Source of the DNA: Xiphias gladius
Taxonomy: Eukaryota > Chordata > Actinopteri > Istiophoriformes > Xiphiidae
Length of the DNA: 64,000 nt
Assembly (NCBI RefSeq): GCF_016859285.1
Contig: NC_053415.1
Coordinates: forward strand, 4,227,001-4,291,000
Reading direction: 5' to 3'
In this document: positions 6,483-40,853 of the stretch, piece by piece
How the letters are laid out: each line of letters opens with the position of its first letter
Position numbering within the stretch: position 1 is the stretch's first letter
Notes under the pieces: model-generated
What the model was told of the DNA's origin: nothing
Seen by the model: only the letters and a program-made list of their open reading frames with translations
Database searches by the model: none
Translations under genes and position numbers: made by a program

Positions 6483-7876
6483 CATAAGTATTTGGACAAT
6501 GACATTTTTTTTTTTTTTTTTGTTCTTCAGGTTCTGAGCTTCAGTTCATTCAATTTTAAATAAAATAATGGATACTACATTAAAGTGCCAAGTGTGACCT
6601 ATAATTTGAGTAGATTGACATCAAAATACAAAGGACTGTGTGGGAGATAGAGCCCTATAAACACAGCATCTAAATTTTAGAGGTTTAACAGTAATTAGAC
6701 ACTTGGTTACTAAAGCTGTGAAATGTTTCTTGGGCAGCTTTGTGTTGTTTCAATGTTAGTTCATGCACTACAAACACTCACATGGCTCAGAGTTGACTGA
6801 GAGTTGAGAGTTGCCATTTAGATTGAGCTGAAGTTGTCTGTCAGTATGAGGAGTGAAGAGGTGAACATGCAAGTGAAGATGATAATGATGAGTCTCAGAA
6901 AAAGCAAAAATCTACCAGAGAGATATCAAAAGTAGTTGGTTTGCCAAAATCAGCAGTTGGGTACTTTCTAAAAAAGCAGATCTGTACAGGAAAATTTGAA
7001 AGTAGTAAACAAGCTGGTAGACCAAGGAGCACAACTCTTGTGGATGATCCCTTTTTTGACTGCACAGCAAGTCAAGAACACGCATTTCCTTGTAAACAAT
7101 CATGAGAAGACTTGATGACCAGAACCTCAGAGGATTCACCACAAGATACAAACCCCTGGTAAACCTCAAAAACCAGGCTGCAGTTCACAAAAACACACAA
7201 AGGAAATGGGTAGAGTTCCTGAACAAAGTTCTATGGGCTGATGAAACAAAAATCAACCAGGAGCATTCTGTGAGCTCAGATTCGGTCAAATGCATCAAAA
7301 CTCATTGGACGACATTTCATCCTACAGCGATCCTAAACATACGGCCAAAGCAACCACAGAGCTTTTTCAGGGTGAAGAGGTGGAATATCTTCGACTCCCC
7401 GAGTCAGTCACCTGATCTCAGCCTGACTGAGTAGCAGTCCACTTGATGAAGACCAGACTAAAGGCAGAGAGACCCCATGACAACAGCAAGAGCTGATGGA
7501 GGCTGCAGTGAAGCTCTGGGAGAGCATCACTAGGGAAGATACAAAGTGTCTTCTGATGTCTGTGGGTCAGTTTTCAACCAGTCATTGACTGTAAAGGATT
7601 TTCCACCAAAATATGAAATATGATGATTTTGTTTGACTTCAAAAGTGTATCTATCCAGCTACTTTTGAACCCCTACAATTTGGACACTGTGTGATAAAAA
7701 GGCTCTATCTCCCACACAATTCTTTCTATAATGATGTAAACCCACCCAGATTAAAGCTGAGACTTGGCACTTAAATGTAGTATCTGTTGTTTTATATCAA
7801 ATTGAATGTGTTGAAGCTCAGAGCCAGAAGGACAAAAAAAAAAAAAAAAAAATGTGTCACTGTCCTAATACTTATG
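6483..7876 (+). mobile_element. Tc1/mariner-like transposon, decayed, with long inverted terminal repeats
   Basis: The element is about 1394 bp, bounded by TA dinucleotides (6481-6482 and 7877-7878), the Tc1 target-site duplication. Its ends match as inverted repeats for about 200 bp: CATAAGTATTTGGACAATG on the left against CATAAGTATTAGGACAGTG read inward from the right. Both are followed by a T-run, a 'tctgagcttca' block and a 'gtgtgggagatagagcc' block. Inside are transposase remnants: a helix-turn-helix region with a GRPR motif (about 6860-7050), then a stretch with RRLDDQNL and LWADETK (about 7102-7260), the latter containing the first catalytic Asp. Stops, frameshifts and lost segments make it non-autonomous, since intact Tc1 transposases are about 340 residues. 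Confidence 0.85.
7102..7434 (+). pseudogene. Tc1 transposase remnant
   Basis: This is the longest surviving frame of the transposase inside the element at 6483-7876. It starts in the linker/second helix-turn-helix region and reaches the catalytic LWADETK segment. It then loses homology, so the later catalytic residues are missing or out of frame. It cannot encode an active enzyme. Confidence 0.75.
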
Positions 7877-14100: not shown

Positions 14101-17100
14101 TTTGTCCTTAAGCAAGATATACTGAGCATTTGCTTACCAAAGAACATGGGAATGTCAAGCTTATCCTCCCGATCCACTCGTCTCTTGATCATCACAATGT
14201 AGACTGCGTAAAGTATCGCCCCAGCCAGCGACCACAAAGAACCTTCATAAAAATTTAAAAGTTATTACCTTTGGAAAGAGCGCTTCAAACTATATTAATT
14301 ACACAATAGTGAGGCGGAAGAGTGACAGATACATGTTGTGTCCATGGCTACCTATGAGGCCTTTCTCATCAGGGTTGTCCATGCTGGAGAAACTCACAAG
14401 GGCCACGCCTCCCATGCTAAACAAGGGAGAGATAATACATTAACTGATAGGTAAACAAGGTTATTTTAAGATTGAACCATTTATTTGAAAAAAAAAAAAA
14501 AAAACGGCGAAAAAGAACAACAAAAAAACGTGACACAAAGTACAAAACTGCTACAAAGTTAATATGTTTTACTATATTAAAGTGTTGAAAAAAATTAACA
14601 ACATACACTGACTGCTTTTCTTATGTGAAAGGACTGAACTCCCTTACACTGACTTGTGACCAATATGTGATCAGTTCAATTTAACTTACATTAAATTAAA
14701 CACTATGCACAAAAACTTTGATGAAATTAAAGAAATGCTTTCATGGTATTGTCGATGAGGAGATCAATACCACTATCATGTCTGTGCTAAATAGGAAGCT
14801 AAAACAGCAGCTGCATATCTTAGCACAAGGACCGGAAATGGGAGAAAAACAGCTCGACAAGAGACAAGACAACAGTGATTCTGGCCTTAATCTGTATCAT
14901 TTTGTTTATTTATTTATGTATGCATATGTTTTTTTTGTATTTACAACTATTGTCTGCCATCTGTAAGCCAAATTTCTCTACTCTGCTCTGCAAACACTGA
15001 TCTTCTCTAACTTTCAGCAAGAAAGCTAATAAGGATATTTCCCAAAATGTTGAACTACTCCTCAATATTTCATTAATTAATATTTCAGAACATTAGAGCC
15101 CAAAAACTCTAAAATCTGCACGGGAAATGCTGCAACAGGCCAAGGTGATGGGGTCAATAAATTAATTGTTTTGTGTTCAAATTTTAGATTTTGTTCTGAA
15201 TGTGGTTCTAGAGGAAAGATAAGTACATCACAAAAACAATTTGAGTTTATCCACTGGGGATCATGAATTCTCTATCTATCTGAACCAGGGAATAAGGTGA
15301 TAATATATATTGATATTGGATATAACGAAAACTAGATTTCAACAACTCTTCCAAAGCGGATGCACAGCATTTTAGAGAACTGAAATGTAAAAGTTAAGTG
15401 CGGAGACACATTAGGAAAACACAAACAGCATAAAATAATACATCCACTCATGTAAATATACACTGAGCACTGAAACCTCCCGGCATGCCCTTCTCAACCC
15501 AACTGCCGACACCTTCATTCAGCCCTTACCTCAGAGCCACAGCTAGCAGTTTGGACAAGGTGAAACGGTCGCTGCTATTGCTGGGAAATATGGCTGCTAA
15601 GATGAGCGTAAACAGGCCTGAAGAGGGAAAGGTGGTAGAACACACTTGAATCAGAAAACTGATGATTCAGATAGCTGAGAGCCCAGTCACAGCAGTGGGT
15701 ATACTCTTCTTTAGGTTTAATAAATACACGACCAAACCAAGACGCATTTGTCCCATTTTCCTTCTCACCTTTAAATTGTACTTACTGTTATCAAATTCAT
15801 AGAGAGAGAGTCACCTGAGGTGGATGACAGAATGTTGACAATAGCAACCTGCACGTCGGACAGGGCTTCCTGGTAGGACAGGTTAGCCAGGAACCACTGG
15901 AAGAAAAACAGAGGCAGTGATGTGACATTTTGTACAAGAAGTGGGCAAAATGGAAAAAAAAAATTACAATACAACAGGCCTGTGGTAAATACCAGTTTGC
16001 TGTCTCAGGTTTTAATTCGACTCGCTGGTCAATTTCAATGTGTGCCCAATTTTTTTTTATTTTTTATTTTTTTAAATTGTATTCTAATGTAAGGTTGATA
16101 TCCACCTCTTATACTGCAGAGTTTTAGTTCATACATCAAAATTACAAGATATCAATAATATCAAAAATCAAAAAAACTAGATATAATATGTAATTACCTG
16201 TATATTGTGACAATGTAATAACCACTTTCCTAAAATTTTCAAACCTTGGAATAGACAGTAATTTCCAATCTGCAAGGTCCTTAAGTGATCAAGTTTAGGT
16301 CTATGTCAAATCCTCTGCTTTAATACTTTCCAGAAGTTCTTCTTTGCGCTCAGAGATGATTTGTAGAAAATTAAAAGCAGTTTATCACATTAAATGCCAC
16401 ATGATTAATGACTTTCAGTTTTGGCACTTATGAACCATTACTCTCTGCTCAGTCCCCTAATTCTTATATGCCAAAGGCACATCTTTTAAAGTACAAGCAA
16501 AACGCACTTGTTGCCACCTGACTTGCAAATAACATAAAAAGAATGCTCAAGTGTGTGTTATTAATTATGCTTTCTGAGAAGTGACTACAACAAGGCTTAA
16601 TAACAAAGACAGGTCAAGTGGTGCTGTACAGCTACAGAGACTTCACAAAGTATTCACTTGTTGCACACTTTGTTTTGTTGTAGATTTAAATATAAATGGA
16701 TAAAAATGATTATTTTTTTTTTTTTTATTTAAAGATTTTTTGCAAATTTACTAAAAATCAAACACTGTTTATACCAGCTGCAAAAGTATTCAGACGCTTT
16801 GTTTCTGACACTCCAAATTGTTTTTAGGTGCATCCTCTTTGCTTAAATTATCCTTGAGATGTGTCTAGAACCTGACTGGACTCCACCTGTGGCAAACTGA
16901 ATTGACTGGACATGGTTTACAAAAGGCACAGAGCTGTGTATATAAGGTCCTGCAATTCACACTGCATGTAGGGACAAAAACCAAGCCATGAAGTGCAAGG
17001 AACTCTCTGCACTTAAAACTGTAGTGAGGCATCAGGTATGAAACCATTTCTAAAGCTTTGAGTGTTACCAGCAGCACAGTGGCCTCAATAATTGTGAAAT

Positions 17101-20100
17101 GGAAGAAGTCTGGAACCACCAGGACTCTTCCCAGAGCTGACCGCCCAGCCAAACTGAGTAACTGGGAAAGAAGAGCCTTGTTTAGGGAGGTGACCAAGAA
17201 CCTAACTGTCACTCTAACAGAGCTTCAGAAGCCCTCTGCAGAGATGGGGAACCTGCCAGAGGGACGACCATCTCAGCAGCACTCCATCAATCAGACCTTA
17301 ATGGTGTGAGGAAAATGATTCTCTGGTCTGATGAGACAAAAATTGAACTCTTTGGGCAGAACTCCAATCACTATGACTGTTGAACACCAGGCACTGCTCA
17401 TCACCTGGCTAATACCATTTTCTACGGTGATTTATGGTGGTGGCAGCATCATGATATGGGGGCTTCTCAGTGGCAGGGACAGGGAGACTTGTCAGAATTG
17501 AGTGCATGAATGCAACCAAATACTGAGAGGTCCTTGAAGAAAACCTGCTCCAGAGTGCAGGCGACCTGAGAATGAGGTGACGGTTCACCATCACGCACAA
17601 CAATGACCCAAAGCATACAGCCAAGACAATCCAAAGCTTTTAGAAAACTTCCCCAAGAAGACTCGAAGCTGTAATTGCTGCCAAATGAGATTGATTTTTA
17701 ATAAATTTGCAAAAATTTCTAAAAACAAAAAGTTTGGTTATCATTCAACTTTTCAGTTGTATGAAGCTCTTTAGCCTCTTTTAGCTCATTGTTCTGATTT
17801 AGCAGCCAACAAATATACTTAAACCCTGTTTTCAGCAGCAGCAGGCAGCCGTTTACAAAACATGCTTCCTACCCAGTACCCAAAGTCAGACAGACAAAAT
17901 GAGCGACTAGCTGGTGTACGTTTCGGAAATCTAGCTGCTTTAGAGCAGAGTATTTTTCTCGGGAGTTGGAAAACAAGAATCTGTGAATTCGAGCGGTGGC
18001 TATGTATCTGTTGGATGTTGAACAATAAAACTGTACAGGATGTACAGAAATTTTAAAATAAATCTTTGTATTCTAATACGTGACTTTTATCAATGTTTTT
18101 TCAAACACATTCTTCTTTGTTAGAACAACAGATAAAATTTTCAATTCCATAGTCCACTAAGAGATTCCACTATAATGTGGAATAGAAATTTGTTCATTTA
18201 TTTATTACGTATACTACATAATGCACCAACAAAGGTATTCAACATTTCCCATACTATTACCTCAGTGCTAACAGCACTAAATGTTTATGTCTAAACAAGA
18301 CTTTAATTTAAAAATTACCAATTGAGCATCTTGATTCCTGAATTATTTCTCTTGACTTAGTTTTAGGGTTCATGCCACACAAATGTTGCAAATGACTTTG
18401 TGTATCTACCCGAAAATTACTTTTGAATTTGGTAGTAACATCTCAGTCCCCCAAAATGTTGCTGTTTTTGAAGCTGTCTTCTGCTACATCCCTCTTAAAA
18501 ATAAATTGGGTGCTTTTCATATCTCATCTCTTACACAGCCACAAATTATGTCTATAATTTGATGCAACAACGTAAAATTCAAAGTTGGCATTCAAGCTGG
18601 CTTCCACTCACCACAAAGCAGAAGAAGAAGCTGATTTTGGCCACATCAGTGATGGTTAGCTTGCCCACTGTGCGCAACATGGCTTCGTGGTCCTTGGCAG
18701 CTGGGTAGGACATGCGGGACAACTTGGCCTCCAGAGCTTGAGTAGAGGGTAGCTGACGCACCTCCATGATGTTACTAAAGCGCACTCGGTGCTTTTTGGA
18801 AGCTGCTGGGGGGTAGAAATGGAGAGAGGTGTGAATTAATGGAGGTTTTATTCCAATCCCCAAACACAGAAAATGGAATGTAATTTTGAGGATCCATTTG
18901 CTTTTGCAGCAAAACCATCATTTTATTGAATTACACAAAATATCACGCTTATCCGATGCTAATGCAGACTGGGCTGAAAACAAGCATCATTTTCAAAACC
19001 GGTGCCAAATATATGAAAACCTAAAATTCATACACAACAGAAACCCTAATAAACTGTCTCAGAACCTCTGTTGTGTGGCTTTGGACTCTGGAGGAACCAT
19101 CGCCTGTCAGCCAGCTCCAGATATTGAGGTAATTCACAGCTTTCCTGAAGGACACCACTTACAAAGGGGGTGCATAAGAATCATCAAACTTTTCAATTGC
19201 TCTGCAAAATACAGCTGAGCCAGAGGACAGAAAAATCCTATCGTTCATCATTTTGTTCTTATTATGATGGCATGTGAAAGAAGAGAGACGACATGAGAGA
19301 TAGGACTGTGTCTGAGGGTCGCTGGAAAAGTCAGACAGAGGTTTCTCATGGTCAATATTGTGGCCCTAAACAGTGGTTTGACCTATTTTCATGGCTCAGC
19401 ACTGCCCTCTGTTGTTCAAATTTTAGTACTCATTAATGAGACCAATTTGATGAGGTTATCAAACTCATATCAAAACTTAAACACGTACGCATACTTATTC
19501 AGAAGAGGATACAATGTTGATGCAAGACAATAAATATGCTTCCTGCTTCATTTTTTTTTAAAAGAGAAAACATCATCTATGTACTCACAAGATTCAAAGT
19601 CTCCAATTAGACAATTTGAGTGTTCAGCAGGTACATCCTGGAACTTCACTGGCACATAAAGTGGTTCACTCTGCACAAGAGTGAAAGAGAAAGTCAGACA
19701 TTTATAGTTGTTAGAGTGTTGGCAAACACTGTTGGTAAACCAACCAAAATTCATTTGAGGATTGGTTTACCAATTATTTCTGAAAGCTTTTGTCGGCTCC
19801 CTCCACTGCCAACACAATAGGAAATGGTAAAAAAAAAACAATACATTGCAGGTAGAGTTATAATTTAATCTGCAATTAAACTACGTACCAAACAGTTGTT
19901 CACAGTGATGTCAGGGGTGCAGGGTGCTAAGTAAGCGTCAGCATCAGCAAACTGCAGAAAGACGCAATTCAAACTGTCAACAGACCAACACCAAGAATTC
20001 TGATTCTGACTTTCTGCTAAGTGACTGAGATTCATTTACAATTTTATCATCCCAGGCCCTGAAAAACATTCTCCGGCAGCTTCTAAGTGAGTTTAAAAGC

Positions 20101-36329: not shown

Positions 36330-37220
36330 AAAATTCTGTCCCCTGTAAATGGTCAACAGTTTTTTCAGGATACTTGTCAAGAAAAATCTTTTTTTTTTTT
36401 GTATTTGTAGAAAAGAGGTTTTGAGGAAATAAGTACAAGTTAAATTTGTGTATGAAAGCATTCCATATGCCCTTATGTCATGACAAGTTGGCAAATAAAT
36501 CAACAAAACACTGGTTTTCTGTCTGCTTCAAATGTTTGTTTTTTTTGTACCCCTACTGCCTTATGGTTCAGAATGAATCTACCAGTTGCATATTAAAGAT
36601 CATGGAAAACAACCTTTGGGTTGAAAGACGGTGTGTCATCAGTATGTATGCAGCATGTTAAATCTTGAAAGAAAGTGTCAACAATTTTTAAAAAAGGTGC
36701 AAGAACACCTAGTGGACACCCTGCTGATATGGATATATGTGTATTAGTTTGCAGCAAAAGCAAAATGTGTATAATTAAATAAAGAAAAAGTTGTGAGAGA
36801 TGGCTAATGAAACTATACTGTACAACTGGGTTCTGTTCCAAAGGGTTCCAGGTATTGTTTGCTGGCTTTGGATACAAATGGCTTTCTTGATGAGAACTAT
36901 GCCATACAATACAAGTTTGAAAAATGCAAAACGGGCCGTTTTGCTTAGTTGTGTAGTCAGTTTGGTGATAACTTCTCACTTGTAAGTGTATGTATTTTAT
37001 TTTTATAGTTTATGGCTATAAAGTTAAGTGGCACAATAAGTTTGCACGTGCAAAGACACACATTTATTTTCTTCCACAACAGCCGGCCTACCCCTGATAA
37101 TATGCCTGAACACCATCATATAGATCTTTTGATATAAATCATTGTCATCACCGGTTCCTTTATTATCTAACCAAAATGTTAACCTACGCTTGTTTTCCTG
37201 TGAAATGACCGGAAGAAGTA
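36330..37220. other. sympk 3' flank; no gene seen
   Basis: AT-rich sequence between sympk and the nucleotidyltransferase gene, probably including the distal sympk 3' UTR. Short open frames on both strands show no recognisable similarity. Confidence 0.5.
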
Positions 37221-37229
37221 CTACTTTTA

Positions 37230-37460
37230 TTTTGTAAATCTCAACTGGAAGCGCTTTAAACCCGAAGCTAGTCTCGCGTAACCAGGATTCTGACTTTTGG
37301 TTAGACGGCTGACCTCGCGAGAGGAGTCCAAAACCTGCGCCGTGCGATGTTTCCCAACTCCTTTACCGCCCCGCGCCAGAAACTTCCAACCGTGATATCG
37401 TAGCCAAGCCACCACGTACCCCCCGGATAACAACCGCGCGGCGCTTCCTGTTCAGTGCAA
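37230..37460 (+). promoter_or_regulatory. CpG-rich promoter region of the nucleotidyltransferase gene
   Basis: The 200 bases before the ATG at 37461 are much richer in G+C and CpG than their surroundings (for example 'gacctcgcgagagg', 'ccgccccgcgcc', 'ccgcgcggcgc'), as expected of a CpG-island promoter. No TATA box is evident. The palindromic TCGCGAGA-type motif near 37315 is a known element of housekeeping promoters. Confidence 0.5.
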
Positions 37461-38618
37461 ATGAAAGCTGTGATTCTCGCCGCCGGTTACGGAACCAGGC
37501 TCCAGAGGGATGTGGTGGCCGACAGCAGCGGGCGGTTCGCTCACCTGGCTGGCACTGCTAAGCCGCTGCTGCCGGTGGGAGGCTGTGCCTTGATATCCCA
37601 CTGGGTCCATGCCCTGAGCGCCTGTGGCGCCGTGGACTGCATTTATGTTGTCGTAAGTAGTTACCACAGTGTAGTCAGCGGAGGGATCGCCTAGGTTAAG
37701 TTCGTTTACTCAAGTATTGTTTTCAATACATTTGAGGTACTTGTACCTTACTTAAATACTTTCATTTTGTGATACTTTATACCTAACTATATAATATTAT
37801 ATACCAATACATTTCAGTGGGGAAACAATGTACTTTTGACTCCACTAACGCTACAGTTCTGATTCATAATACATTTAAAAGTACTACTTTCTAATAGCTT
37901 TGCATAGTAAGAGTTTACATACAAAACATATGCTCGCATTTTAAAATATGGTGCATTATTAAAATGAAACTTCCAAACAGTACATTCAAGTTAAAATTAG
38001 CTGCATGACATTATTGTATCAATAATAATAATCCAACAATGTATATAAAAACATGACACTGAAAGATGCCAACGGCATCAATGAGTGGTCTTATGATATT
38101 CTAAGTAAATTCTGCATATACTTGTGTTTCAAACTAGGATCAGACCAGTGTGTGTGTGTGTGTGTGTGTGTTTTTTTAAGGCCATTACAGATATTTTTTG
38201 CATTAAGGGCCAGGGCTGATGTGTGTAATTGAGTGCGCCTGGTTTTCAGGTATAACTCTGACCTGAGCATAAATGATCCGTTCTGTGCCTCCGCTTATGT
38301 CTTTCAACTGTTGTCCTCTCCCCAGACTAATGCTCTTTACCATGCTGCATTTGAAGAGTGGGCTGCACATTTCACAAATGTCAAGATTCTCAGCGACCAG
38401 ACAAGAAGCAATGATGTAAATTCAGTTTTCCCATTATTGTTTTCACAGTCATCACTACCTTTGTAGCATGTTTTGGACCTTAGAAAAGGAGACTTTTCAT
38501 ACCATCCACTGACTTAATAAGCTCAAGTCTCAAGTCTCATAGTGGCAGACATGTTCCATGCTTAGGTGTCTTTGAAAATACATTTCTTGATTGGCTTTCT
38601 TTAGATCAGAAAGGGTCA

Positions 38619-38687
<69 letters not shown>

Positions 38688-40706
38688 ATAAACCTTCAAA
38701 GCTCATGTTCTCATTCCACCAGGAGCGTCTTGGTGCTATGGCCTGCCTGCAGCTTGCAGTAAAGCACTTCAAGATTGAAGACCACGTGGTAGTTATCGGA
38801 GGGTACGTTTTTAAACTCAACAGTGTCAATAGTACCATGCAGAGGCAAGTCTTATTAGCTATGAAATCTAGCCCTGTTCCCTGACAAACTGATGCAACTG
38901 TCTCTCCAATCCTAAACAGTGATACCCTCTTCAAAGAAGATTTCAGCTTCAGTAAAGTTAAAGAGAGGTTTTCTGACCGGCAAGCACACTATGAGGACAG
39001 CTGTCTAGTGCTCTCGTACCAGTGCAAAGACGAAGGTGGGGTTTACAGCATTTGCAGAGCTAAGTGAAGCTGATGAGCTGCTTCGGAACCAGACATTTTG
39101 ATTCTGACATGACTAGCCACTGAGCAGATTCAGTGGAGATGTTTGGGCTCAAATGTAATCCTATAAAAGCTTTTAGGGAAGTGGGTGAATCTCATCTTAG
39201 AATGTCCATCTTGGCTTTGCCTCATGCTCACAGTCAGTTCTATATTGTGTCTGTACAGAAACCCATAAGTACGGGATACTGGAAGTAGACAGTGATCTTC
39301 ATGTCCTCTGTATGAAGGAGAAACCTCTTCCTTCTGAGACAAGGTCAAGGAGAGCAGTAAGTTTACCATAAACACTAACCAAGGTCTACCAGTGATAAAA
39401 GAATATTTACGATGGCAAATGACCCTGTAGAAAAAGAGAGTACAAAAAGGACCCAACTGAAATCTTTACTTAGTCTTGAGAGAAATGACGTTATGCCATA
39501 AGAGCTGCCAGCCAGGTTCTCTACAGTGCAGTTAATGGTACCAGGACAGTCGTGCAACTGTTGTTGTTTTGGCAGTGTAAGCCAGCACTTTGGATTTGAA
39601 ATGAAACAATGATTAGGAAGTTAAAGTGCGGACACTCGGCTTTAGTTTGAGCACTTTTACAGCAACATCAGATGAGCAGTGTGGGAACTGTAGGCCTTTC
39701 TATTCAGTCATTCCATTTCACTAGAATAAAGTTATATTTAATCTCAGGTAGCAAATCATTTGCCATTCAATGACTGGCTAATGTTTGCGACACATGAACA
39801 TCAGCATACACTTGGTATCCTTCCTAATGGTACTCTGCCAGAACTGCCATCTTCCTTTCTCGCTGTTTTCAGAGGTACTGTATTTTGCCTCCACTCTGAT
39901 CTTCAGCAAGTGAAATACGAAGTATCGGTTGAGTGAGGTTAGGTGATTTACTTGGCTAGTCAAGAACATTCAACTCACCACATAAAAACTCTTATGTTGC
40001 CTTGATAGTTAAGGATCATTGCCCAGCTACATTGTCCTAAAACTGGTGTGATCATTGCCATATATTTATTGATATATGAAGGTTATTGGTATTTTTATGT
40101 AAAGCCTGACTTGTACTATGCATGTATTCATTTTTGAAGACATTATCAAGCAGCAACCAGCTAATAAACTCCATTTGTGTTTCAGTGTCCTTGTTTCTAT
40201 ATGTTATCGAAGAAAAGCCTTCCTCTGTTGGATACCTTCCTCGAGGAGAAGAAGGTAGGTTTAATCATCAAAAGTCCAACATGTGACGTGAGAAAAAGAG
40301 GGAGTTGTGTGTTTTAATTTCTCTACTATGCACACCTTTATATTTCCATAGGAAGCTCCTATTGAAGAGAAGGATGCCCCAGGAAACTTTGTGTCTTGGC
40401 TCATTCCAAGGTAATTTCTGATGGATCCTTTAGAATCAGGAATATGAGTTTTACTCAGCAAAGTTATCCCAATCATTTAGAAATCCTGCTTTGTGGGATA
40501 GATTTAAAAGGTGTATTAGCTTCCCATTTGTAAGTGTATTTCTCAGTAAATCATGTTTGTTTGGTTTTTTTTCTTCTTCTTTCAGGAAGCCAGTATACGT
40601 TCATCAGATTTCTGGGCGTTTTGATGTTGGAAACTTGCCTTCTTACATTGAATGTGACGTTTACTTCAGAGAAAAACTTCAAGATGTCAATTCTTACATG
40701 GTTTAG
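37461..40706 (+). CDS. Sugar-phosphate nucleotidyltransferase-like protein, bacterial type
   Basis: Predicted to join a nucleoside triphosphate and a sugar-1-phosphate to make an NDP-sugar, from the Rossmann-type NTP_transferase fold; the substrate is unknown. Eight exons: 37461-37652, 38326-38415, 38723-38802, 38920-39035, 39259-39356, 40186-40254, 40352-40410, 40586-40706, giving 274 residues in frame. The signature LAAGYGTRL is at 6-14, TAKPLLPVGG at 32-41 with the conserved Lys34, a GGD metal-binding Asp at 122, YGILEVD at 164-170, a KEKP segment near 178-181 and FDVG with the second metal Asp at 247-250. It lacks the C-terminal left-handed beta-helix of animal GMPPA/GMPPB and eIF2B subunits, and matches the short bacterial glucose-1-phosphate-type enzymes in length. 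The frame opens six bases earlier with GTG, but the ATG at 37461 is the likely start. I know no mammalian counterpart. Confidence 0.85.
38149..38171. repeat. (TG)n microsatellite
   Basis: A short TG tract followed by a T-run, in intron 1 of the nucleotidyltransferase gene. Confidence 0.85.
38621..38682. repeat. (TA)n followed by poly-T
   Basis: About 34 bp of TA repeat run directly into about 26 T residues, just upstream of the acceptor of exon 3 of the nucleotidyltransferase gene. Confidence 0.95.
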
Positions 40707-40847: not shown

Positions 40848-40853
40848 AATAAA
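40848..40853 (+). other. Candidate polyadenylation signal of the nucleotidyltransferase gene
   Basis: AATAAA about 142 bases after the stop codon at 40706 and about 100 bases before the end of the convergent asnsd1 coding region. Confidence 0.5.

Follow-up and report, generated by a model that had tools for sequence, protein, structure and literature searches.

A stand-alone relative of the GKUP nucleotidyltransferase domain in Xiphias gladius and its possible part in UDP-glucuronate synthesis

The locus and its gene

The 64,000-nucleotide stretch of the Xiphias gladius genome analyzed here (NCBI RefSeq assembly GCF_016859285.1, contig NC_053415.1, positions 4,227,001 to 4,291,000 of the forward strand; hereafter the window, with its own numbering) carries on its + strand a spliced gene for a short sugar nucleotidyltransferase. 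The nucleotidyltransferase family is already known and the gene is real. The new point, drawn from sequence comparison, is that of two paralogues in one fish, this gene and the N-terminal domain of the larger protein GKUP, the catalytically intact copy appears to be the stand-alone window gene.

Upstream of the gene and on the same strand lies symplekin, identified by Pfam matches to SYMPK_PTA1_N and Symplekin_C. Downstream and convergent is a long - strand reading frame that stops near 40.96 kb and has a weak Asn_synthase match (21.5 bits vs. a cut-off of 21); we take it to be asnsd1 and call it so below. Ferroportin (FPN1) is found beyond asnsd1.

The eight exons of the window gene (37461-40706, + strand) join in frame into 274 amino acids and a stop, and all seven introns are of the GT-AG type. 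Exon 1 (37461-37652) encodes residues 1-64, including the signature LAAGYGTRL with Arg13, and Lys34, and is followed by exon 2 (38326-38415; residues 65-94) and by exon 3 (38723-38802), which starts at residue 95 and ends inside the GGD motif. The metal-binding Asp122 of this motif (GGDTLF) is encoded by exon 4 (38920-39035), the pair Glu180-Lys181 (EKP) by exon 5 (39259-39356), and exon 6 (40186-40254) starts at residue 193. Exon 7 (40352-40410) holds the bulk of a DAPGNFVSWL motif that a multiple alignment also places in prokaryotic relatives, and exon 8 (40586-40706) encodes the second metal-binding residue, Asp248 (FDVG), and the stop. A possible polyadenylation signal, AATAAA, can be read at 40848-40853 (+). 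The promoter and 5′ end (37001-37600, +) are rich in CpG, with observed/expected ratios of 1.13 (37001-37400) and 1.01 (37201-37600) vs. 0.37 for the whole window.

Family and catalytic residues of the product

The product scores 69.5 bits (cut-off 21.2) against Pfam NTP_transferase (PF00483), the match spanning residues 2-258, and its motifs stand at Lys34, 120-122 (GGD) and 247-250 (FDVG), next to the N-terminal signature. A scan of a prokaryotic collection confirmed at least 388 related stretches among 589 candidates, of which the best 80 were kept and form the basis of all locus counts given below. The catalytic residues were compared by aligning the protein with E. coli RfbA and with 84 prokaryotic relatives, namely 76 of the 80 fetched loci and eight plasmid rows, the four other loci being broken, incomplete or fused. 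Aligned to RfbA, whose GD motif Asp corresponds to Asp122, the window protein has the signature Arg, the loop Lys, the metal-binding Asp of both GD and DxG motifs, and the EK pair. Arg13, Lys34, Asp122, Glu180, Lys181, Asp248 and Gly250 are each invariant in the 84 prokaryotic rows. A decaying or unexpressed copy is therefore very improbable: the eight-exon frame is intact with regular introns and a CpG-rich promoter, and six catalytic residues have been retained at 30-38% identity to the prokaryotic relatives.

No C-terminal left-handed beta-helix domain of the GMPPB/GMPPA/eIF2B type was found, since Pfam returned only nucleotidyltransferase models and the frame ends at residue 274. Nor does the protein have a C-terminal GHMP glucuronokinase domain, the stop at 40706 being followed by asnsd1 on the other strand, and without a kinase domain it is not a GKUP. 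The 22 NCBIfam families listed for the protein all score far below their cut-offs, without any equivalog assignment, and thus no substrate is assigned by them. A first-pass annotation of this DNA, made from the letters alone, had proposed an eight-exon gene for a 274-residue product, a CpG-rich promoter, a complete catalytic set at these same residues and the lack of an extra C-terminal domain, and all of this is borne out.

Relationship to GKUP, GMPPB and prokaryotic proteins

Gangl et al. (2014; PMC3938481, used here, like the other papers cited, from excerpts of its text) cloned zebrafish GKUP (glucuronokinase with putative uridyl pyrophosphorylase), a protein of 619 residues whose first 260 or so form a nucleotidyltransferase-like domain, with a glucuronokinase of 357 residues after it. 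They describe the N-terminal domain as homologous to bacterial nucleotidyltransferases, with closely related single-domain proteins in haloarchaea and Firmicutes, and assign it to UDP-glucuronate salvage (PMC3938481). According to the excerpts, members of the GKUP family occur in fishes, frogs, tunicates, polychaetes, choanoflagellates and certain fungi but are missing from mammals, in line with the first-pass statement that the window gene has no evident mammalian counterpart (PMC3938481). The idea that the protein has no known relatives is overtaken by the domain described in 2014 and by the gkup gene that this same fish carries.

The animal side of our comparison, in scores as in tree, consists of this fish's own proteins, and among these the closest relative found by both means is the GKUP N-terminal domain. 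The window protein scores 128.8 bits in phmmer against its best prokaryotic match, 102.7 against the GKUP domain, 14.9 against RfbA and 12.0 against fish GMPPB, in agreement with an earlier description of it as bacterial-type and far from GMPPB. A profile of 34 prokaryotic relatives gives 196 bits to the window protein, 136 to the GKUP domain, 97 to RfbA and 91 to GMPPB. Identity between the two fish sequences is 29.7% (78 of 263 aligned residues); the highest identities are 38% for the window protein, with a protein of Rikenellaceae, and 32% for the GKUP domain, with one of Gracilibacillus.

A tree was built from 63 rows: eight plasmid rows, four others and 51 of the 80 fetched loci, near-duplicates and incomplete ones being omitted. 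In it the window protein and the GKUP domain are sisters with a support of 99/92. They also share a stretch of 21 residues from the signature Arg position to Lys34, which measures 10 residues in 83 of the 84 prokaryotic rows, the one exception having 28. Sisterhood and shared loop together indicate that an old eukaryotic duplication fits best, better than the private acquisition from bacteria that the first-pass annotation had entertained. Two observations weigh against this placement. GKUP, RfbA and GMPPB are long branches in the tree, that of GMPPB being very long, and the approximately unbiased (AU) test leaves a pairing of the window protein with GMPPB unrejected (p 0.19). The best tree pairs the window protein with the GKUP domain and not with GMPPB, a choice that the AU test does not secure. 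Even so, that the window protein is simply a diverged member of the GMPPB family has a negligible chance in our view, given the wide gap between the two phmmer scores, the lack of a C-terminal domain and the low AU value for a grouping of window protein, GMPPB and RfbA (p 0.036).

The window protein thus shares with the GKUP N-terminal domain its family, its position in the tree and its loop length, and differs in the missing kinase, the symplekin/asnsd1 locus, an identity of 30%, and the signature Arg and DxG Asp that it has kept. To prokaryotic single-domain proteins annotated as 'NDP-sugar synthase' (loci L017-L018, L020-L025 and L027-L106) it is 30-38% identical, with the same catalytic residues and mostly likewise unfused; these differ in being intronless and in their shorter loop after the signature, and many lie in polysaccharide gene clusters, next to a UDP-glucose dehydrogenase or a kinase. 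From the RmlA/GalU type it is more remote, its identity to E. coli RfbA being about 21% and its scores far under the NCBIfam cut-offs. Viral and phage collections yielded no near relative of the window gene: two scans were empty, a third showed 11 distant relatives and a fourth a single phage record.

Two relatives of unusual form were seen among the prokaryotic loci. A Bacillota metagenome contig (L059:1626-3686) encodes a protein of 687 amino acids that combines the nucleotidyltransferase with an aldehyde dehydrogenase-like domain, and a Lactococcus garvieae plasmid harbors, in a polysaccharide gene cluster, an unannotated relative with an in-frame stop (L019:6001-6681).

The gkup gene of the same fish

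Searched against the 690 Mb of its own genome, the window protein gave eight matches at E ≤ 0.001, all of them exons of the window gene, and one further match at E ≤ 10 (E 0.99), which is a gkup exon. The same weak match was obtained with a Gracilibacillus relative (E 0.043), and it was through this match, common to both queries, that gkup was found. These searches run exon by exon and are weak: PF00483 at E ≤ 0.001 did not recover the exons of the window gene itself, nor did PF00288 (E ≤ 1) recover the gkup kinase. The genome matches to PF00483 and PF00288 were read by eye as what are presumably GALK1, GALK2, MVK, GMPPB, GMPPA and EIF2B3. A bacterial kinase used as query gave three weak matches (best E 0.14).

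The complete gkup gene lies on contig C7 (loci L136 and L137), from 3886116 down to 3875588, and its 23 exons form a single open frame of 622 amino acids with Pfam NTP_transferase, GHMP_kinases_N and GHMP_kinases_C, each over its cut-off. About 1 kb past it lies ubash3b, recognized by its first coding exon, whose 43 residues match the solved Sts-1 domain 2cpw at E 3.5e-8. This neighborhood is the arrangement of seabass, where gkup adjoins ubash3bb according to an excerpt of a 2025 paper that describes gkup as single-copy across teleosts (PMC12487334). With a complete gkup at its own locus beside ubash3b, the window gene, which sits elsewhere, between symplekin and asnsd1, is a second, separate and kinase-less gene.

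The nucleotidyltransferase domain of this GKUP has Val at the signature Arg position in five of five alignments, its exon 1 being gapless against the window protein. It also lacks the DxG Asp (FQLIG vs. FDVG), the position being occupied by Leu in three multiple alignments and by a gap in two pairwise ones, and retains the Lys, the GD Asp and the Glu-Lys pair; fish GMPPB carries the full set of residues examined. The joins of the gkup model are least certain at the exon 7 donor (GTTCGT) and where exon 8 ends, possibly one codon earlier, and neither alternative restores an Asp at the DxG position. The nucleotidyltransferase half of this fish's GKUP is hence likely a pseudoenzyme domain.

Published data support the weight of the lost residues. 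Excerpts on Klebsiella UGP report about 5% of activity left after mutation of the signature Arg to Ala, and an inactive paralogue, GalF, without that Arg (PMC11796359), and GDN and DTG are given as the Mg2+-stabilizing motifs of RmlA (PMC8606822). GalU and GalF of enterobacteria, an active enzyme and a paralogue without the catalytic Arg, resemble the pair described here by analogy only, as they belong to another subfamily (PMC11796359).

Proposed function

Biochemical work on zebrafish and Xenopus GKUP found the kinase active and, in the excerpts available, no pyrophosphorylase activity either in standard assays under many conditions or in yeast; full-length protein formed slight amounts of UDP-glucuronate after 70 hours and neither domain alone formed any (PMC3938481). 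The losses of Arg and Asp in the Xiphias gladius protein would explain such weak activity. Since GKUP shows next to no pyrophosphorylase activity in vitro, the window gene becomes a candidate for the working enzyme. We give about even odds (0.5) to the reading that it encodes a working, cytosolic-type sugar-1-phosphate nucleotidyltransferase that would use UTP and glucuronate-1-phosphate and would perform the step at which GKUP seems to fail.

Like RmlA and GalU, the enzyme would bind the NTP by its GxGTRL loop (Arg13, Lys34) and hold Mg2+ by Asp122 and Asp248, so that the phosphate of the sugar-1-phosphate could attack the alpha-phosphate of the NTP to give the NDP-sugar and pyrophosphate. 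The substrates would most likely be UTP and a uronic acid 1-phosphate, the first choice being glucuronate-1-phosphate, the product of the GKUP kinase half; the damaged nucleotidyltransferase half of GKUP would do the following step poorly or not at all. Exons of MIOX, which forms glucuronate from myo-inositol, are present in the genome (five matches on contig C8, best E 2.1e-12), and MIOX, the GKUP kinase and the window enzyme could form a route to UDP-glucuronate whose last step is the predicted one. Activity, use of UTP, glucuronate-1-phosphate as substrate and a division of labor with GKUP are all predictions from sequence. The wider proposal is put more tentatively, somewhat short of an even chance: the window gene would be the missing UDP-glucuronate pyrophosphorylase of fish, completing the myo-inositol route, and GKUP would be a glucuronokinase with a pseudoenzyme half, perhaps regulatory as in GMPPA or GalF.

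The gene neighbors of the prokaryotic relatives bear on the choice of sugar. A UDP-glucose-dehydrogenase-like gene is directly adjacent on the same strand in 18 of the 80 best loci and an epimerase-like gene in 14. A galactokinase-like GHMP kinase is adjacent in eight, always immediately upstream and at a spacing of -1 to 8 bases. As kinase and dehydrogenase are never adjacent together (0 of 80), 26 of the 80 loci have either one. The kinase neighbors are compatible with a salvage pair, as in GKUP, and the dehydrogenase neighbors with a supply of UDP-glucose to the dehydrogenase or with a common product, UDP-glucuronate. Several relatives in Clostridia have an RNA pseudouridine synthase or other housekeeping genes as neighbors, which are uninformative on the substrate.

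The same counts can be read in favor of another sugar: glucose-1-phosphate, which would make the gene a second, bacterial-type source of UDP-glucose, galacturonate-1-phosphate, or the sugar of an undescribed fish glycan. The dehydrogenase beside the relatives would consume UDP-glucose, the adjacent kinase is galactokinase-like and stays below its curated cut-off (at L029, TIGR00131 gives 202 bits vs. 226.65), and NCBIfam does not designate any substrate. UGP2, however, presumably supplies UDP-glucose in fish already. We consider another sugar less likely, as GKUP, fused to a glucuronokinase, is the only animal relative with a known partner activity in the excerpted account (PMC3938481). The first-pass suggestion of an undescribed glycan or metabolite need not be invoked, the GKUP domain having been assigned to UDP-glucuronate salvage (PMC3938481).

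The window protein could also join GKUP in a complex as the catalytic subunit; the degenerate domain would then regulate or scaffold it, as GMPPA does with GMPPB, and glucuronate-1-phosphate would be handed over directly. The presence of intact and degenerate sister domains in one genome suits this idea, as does the suggestion of 2014 that some protein might boost the GKUP pyrophosphorylase (PMC3938481); since the two sequences are just 30% identical, we hold it to be rather improbable.

If the stand-alone paralogue that we favor as the enzyme of this step is active, a second UDP-glucuronate pathway becomes testable, and if the reading is true, the nucleotidyltransferase half of GKUP is a vertebrate pseudoenzyme domain. 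The authors of 2014 proposed such a second route for fish and frogs to account for the residual proteoglycans of jekyll/ugdh zebrafish mutants (PMC3938481), and an excerpt from a later publication on disease of human UGDH raises the question whether it could be exploited (PMC6992768). The 2014 excerpts state that no further GKUP homologue was found in zebrafish; a figure legend (Figure 3) names Haplochromis burtoni twice and the text mentions separate transcripts in coelacanth and sea urchin (PMC3938481). These cases may be orthologues, as a lead only. No publication on a stand-alone GKUP-domain paralogue was found among the top-ranked matches of a literature search. Zebrafish zgc:136439 is, we assume, perhaps a nucleotidyltransferase gene, and a literature search by that name gave nothing.

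Further observations on prokaryotic loci and on the window

Two-gene units of kinase and nucleotidyltransferase, possible sugar-acid salvage pairs, occur at L028, L029, L031, L033, L054, L064, L071 and L079; in the stored sequence, the frame of the kinase is broken in L054 and that of the nucleotidyltransferase in L079. A resemblance of the bacterial galactokinase-like kinase to plant galacturonate kinase is our assumption and was not used as evidence. The dehydrogenase-like gene lies directly upstream at L032, L034-L036, L039, L040, L042, L044-L047, L050, L051, L053, L068, L076, L086 and L088. Most of these loci come from small archaea, Woesearchaeota among them, and an epimerase-like gene frequently lies on the downstream side.

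Elsewhere in the window, a long open frame on the - strand (1222-2232) encodes a rhodopsin-family receptor (Pfam 7tm_1), and pieces at 6857-7431 and 17028-17306 (+) resemble, by eye only, a decayed Tc1-type transposase.
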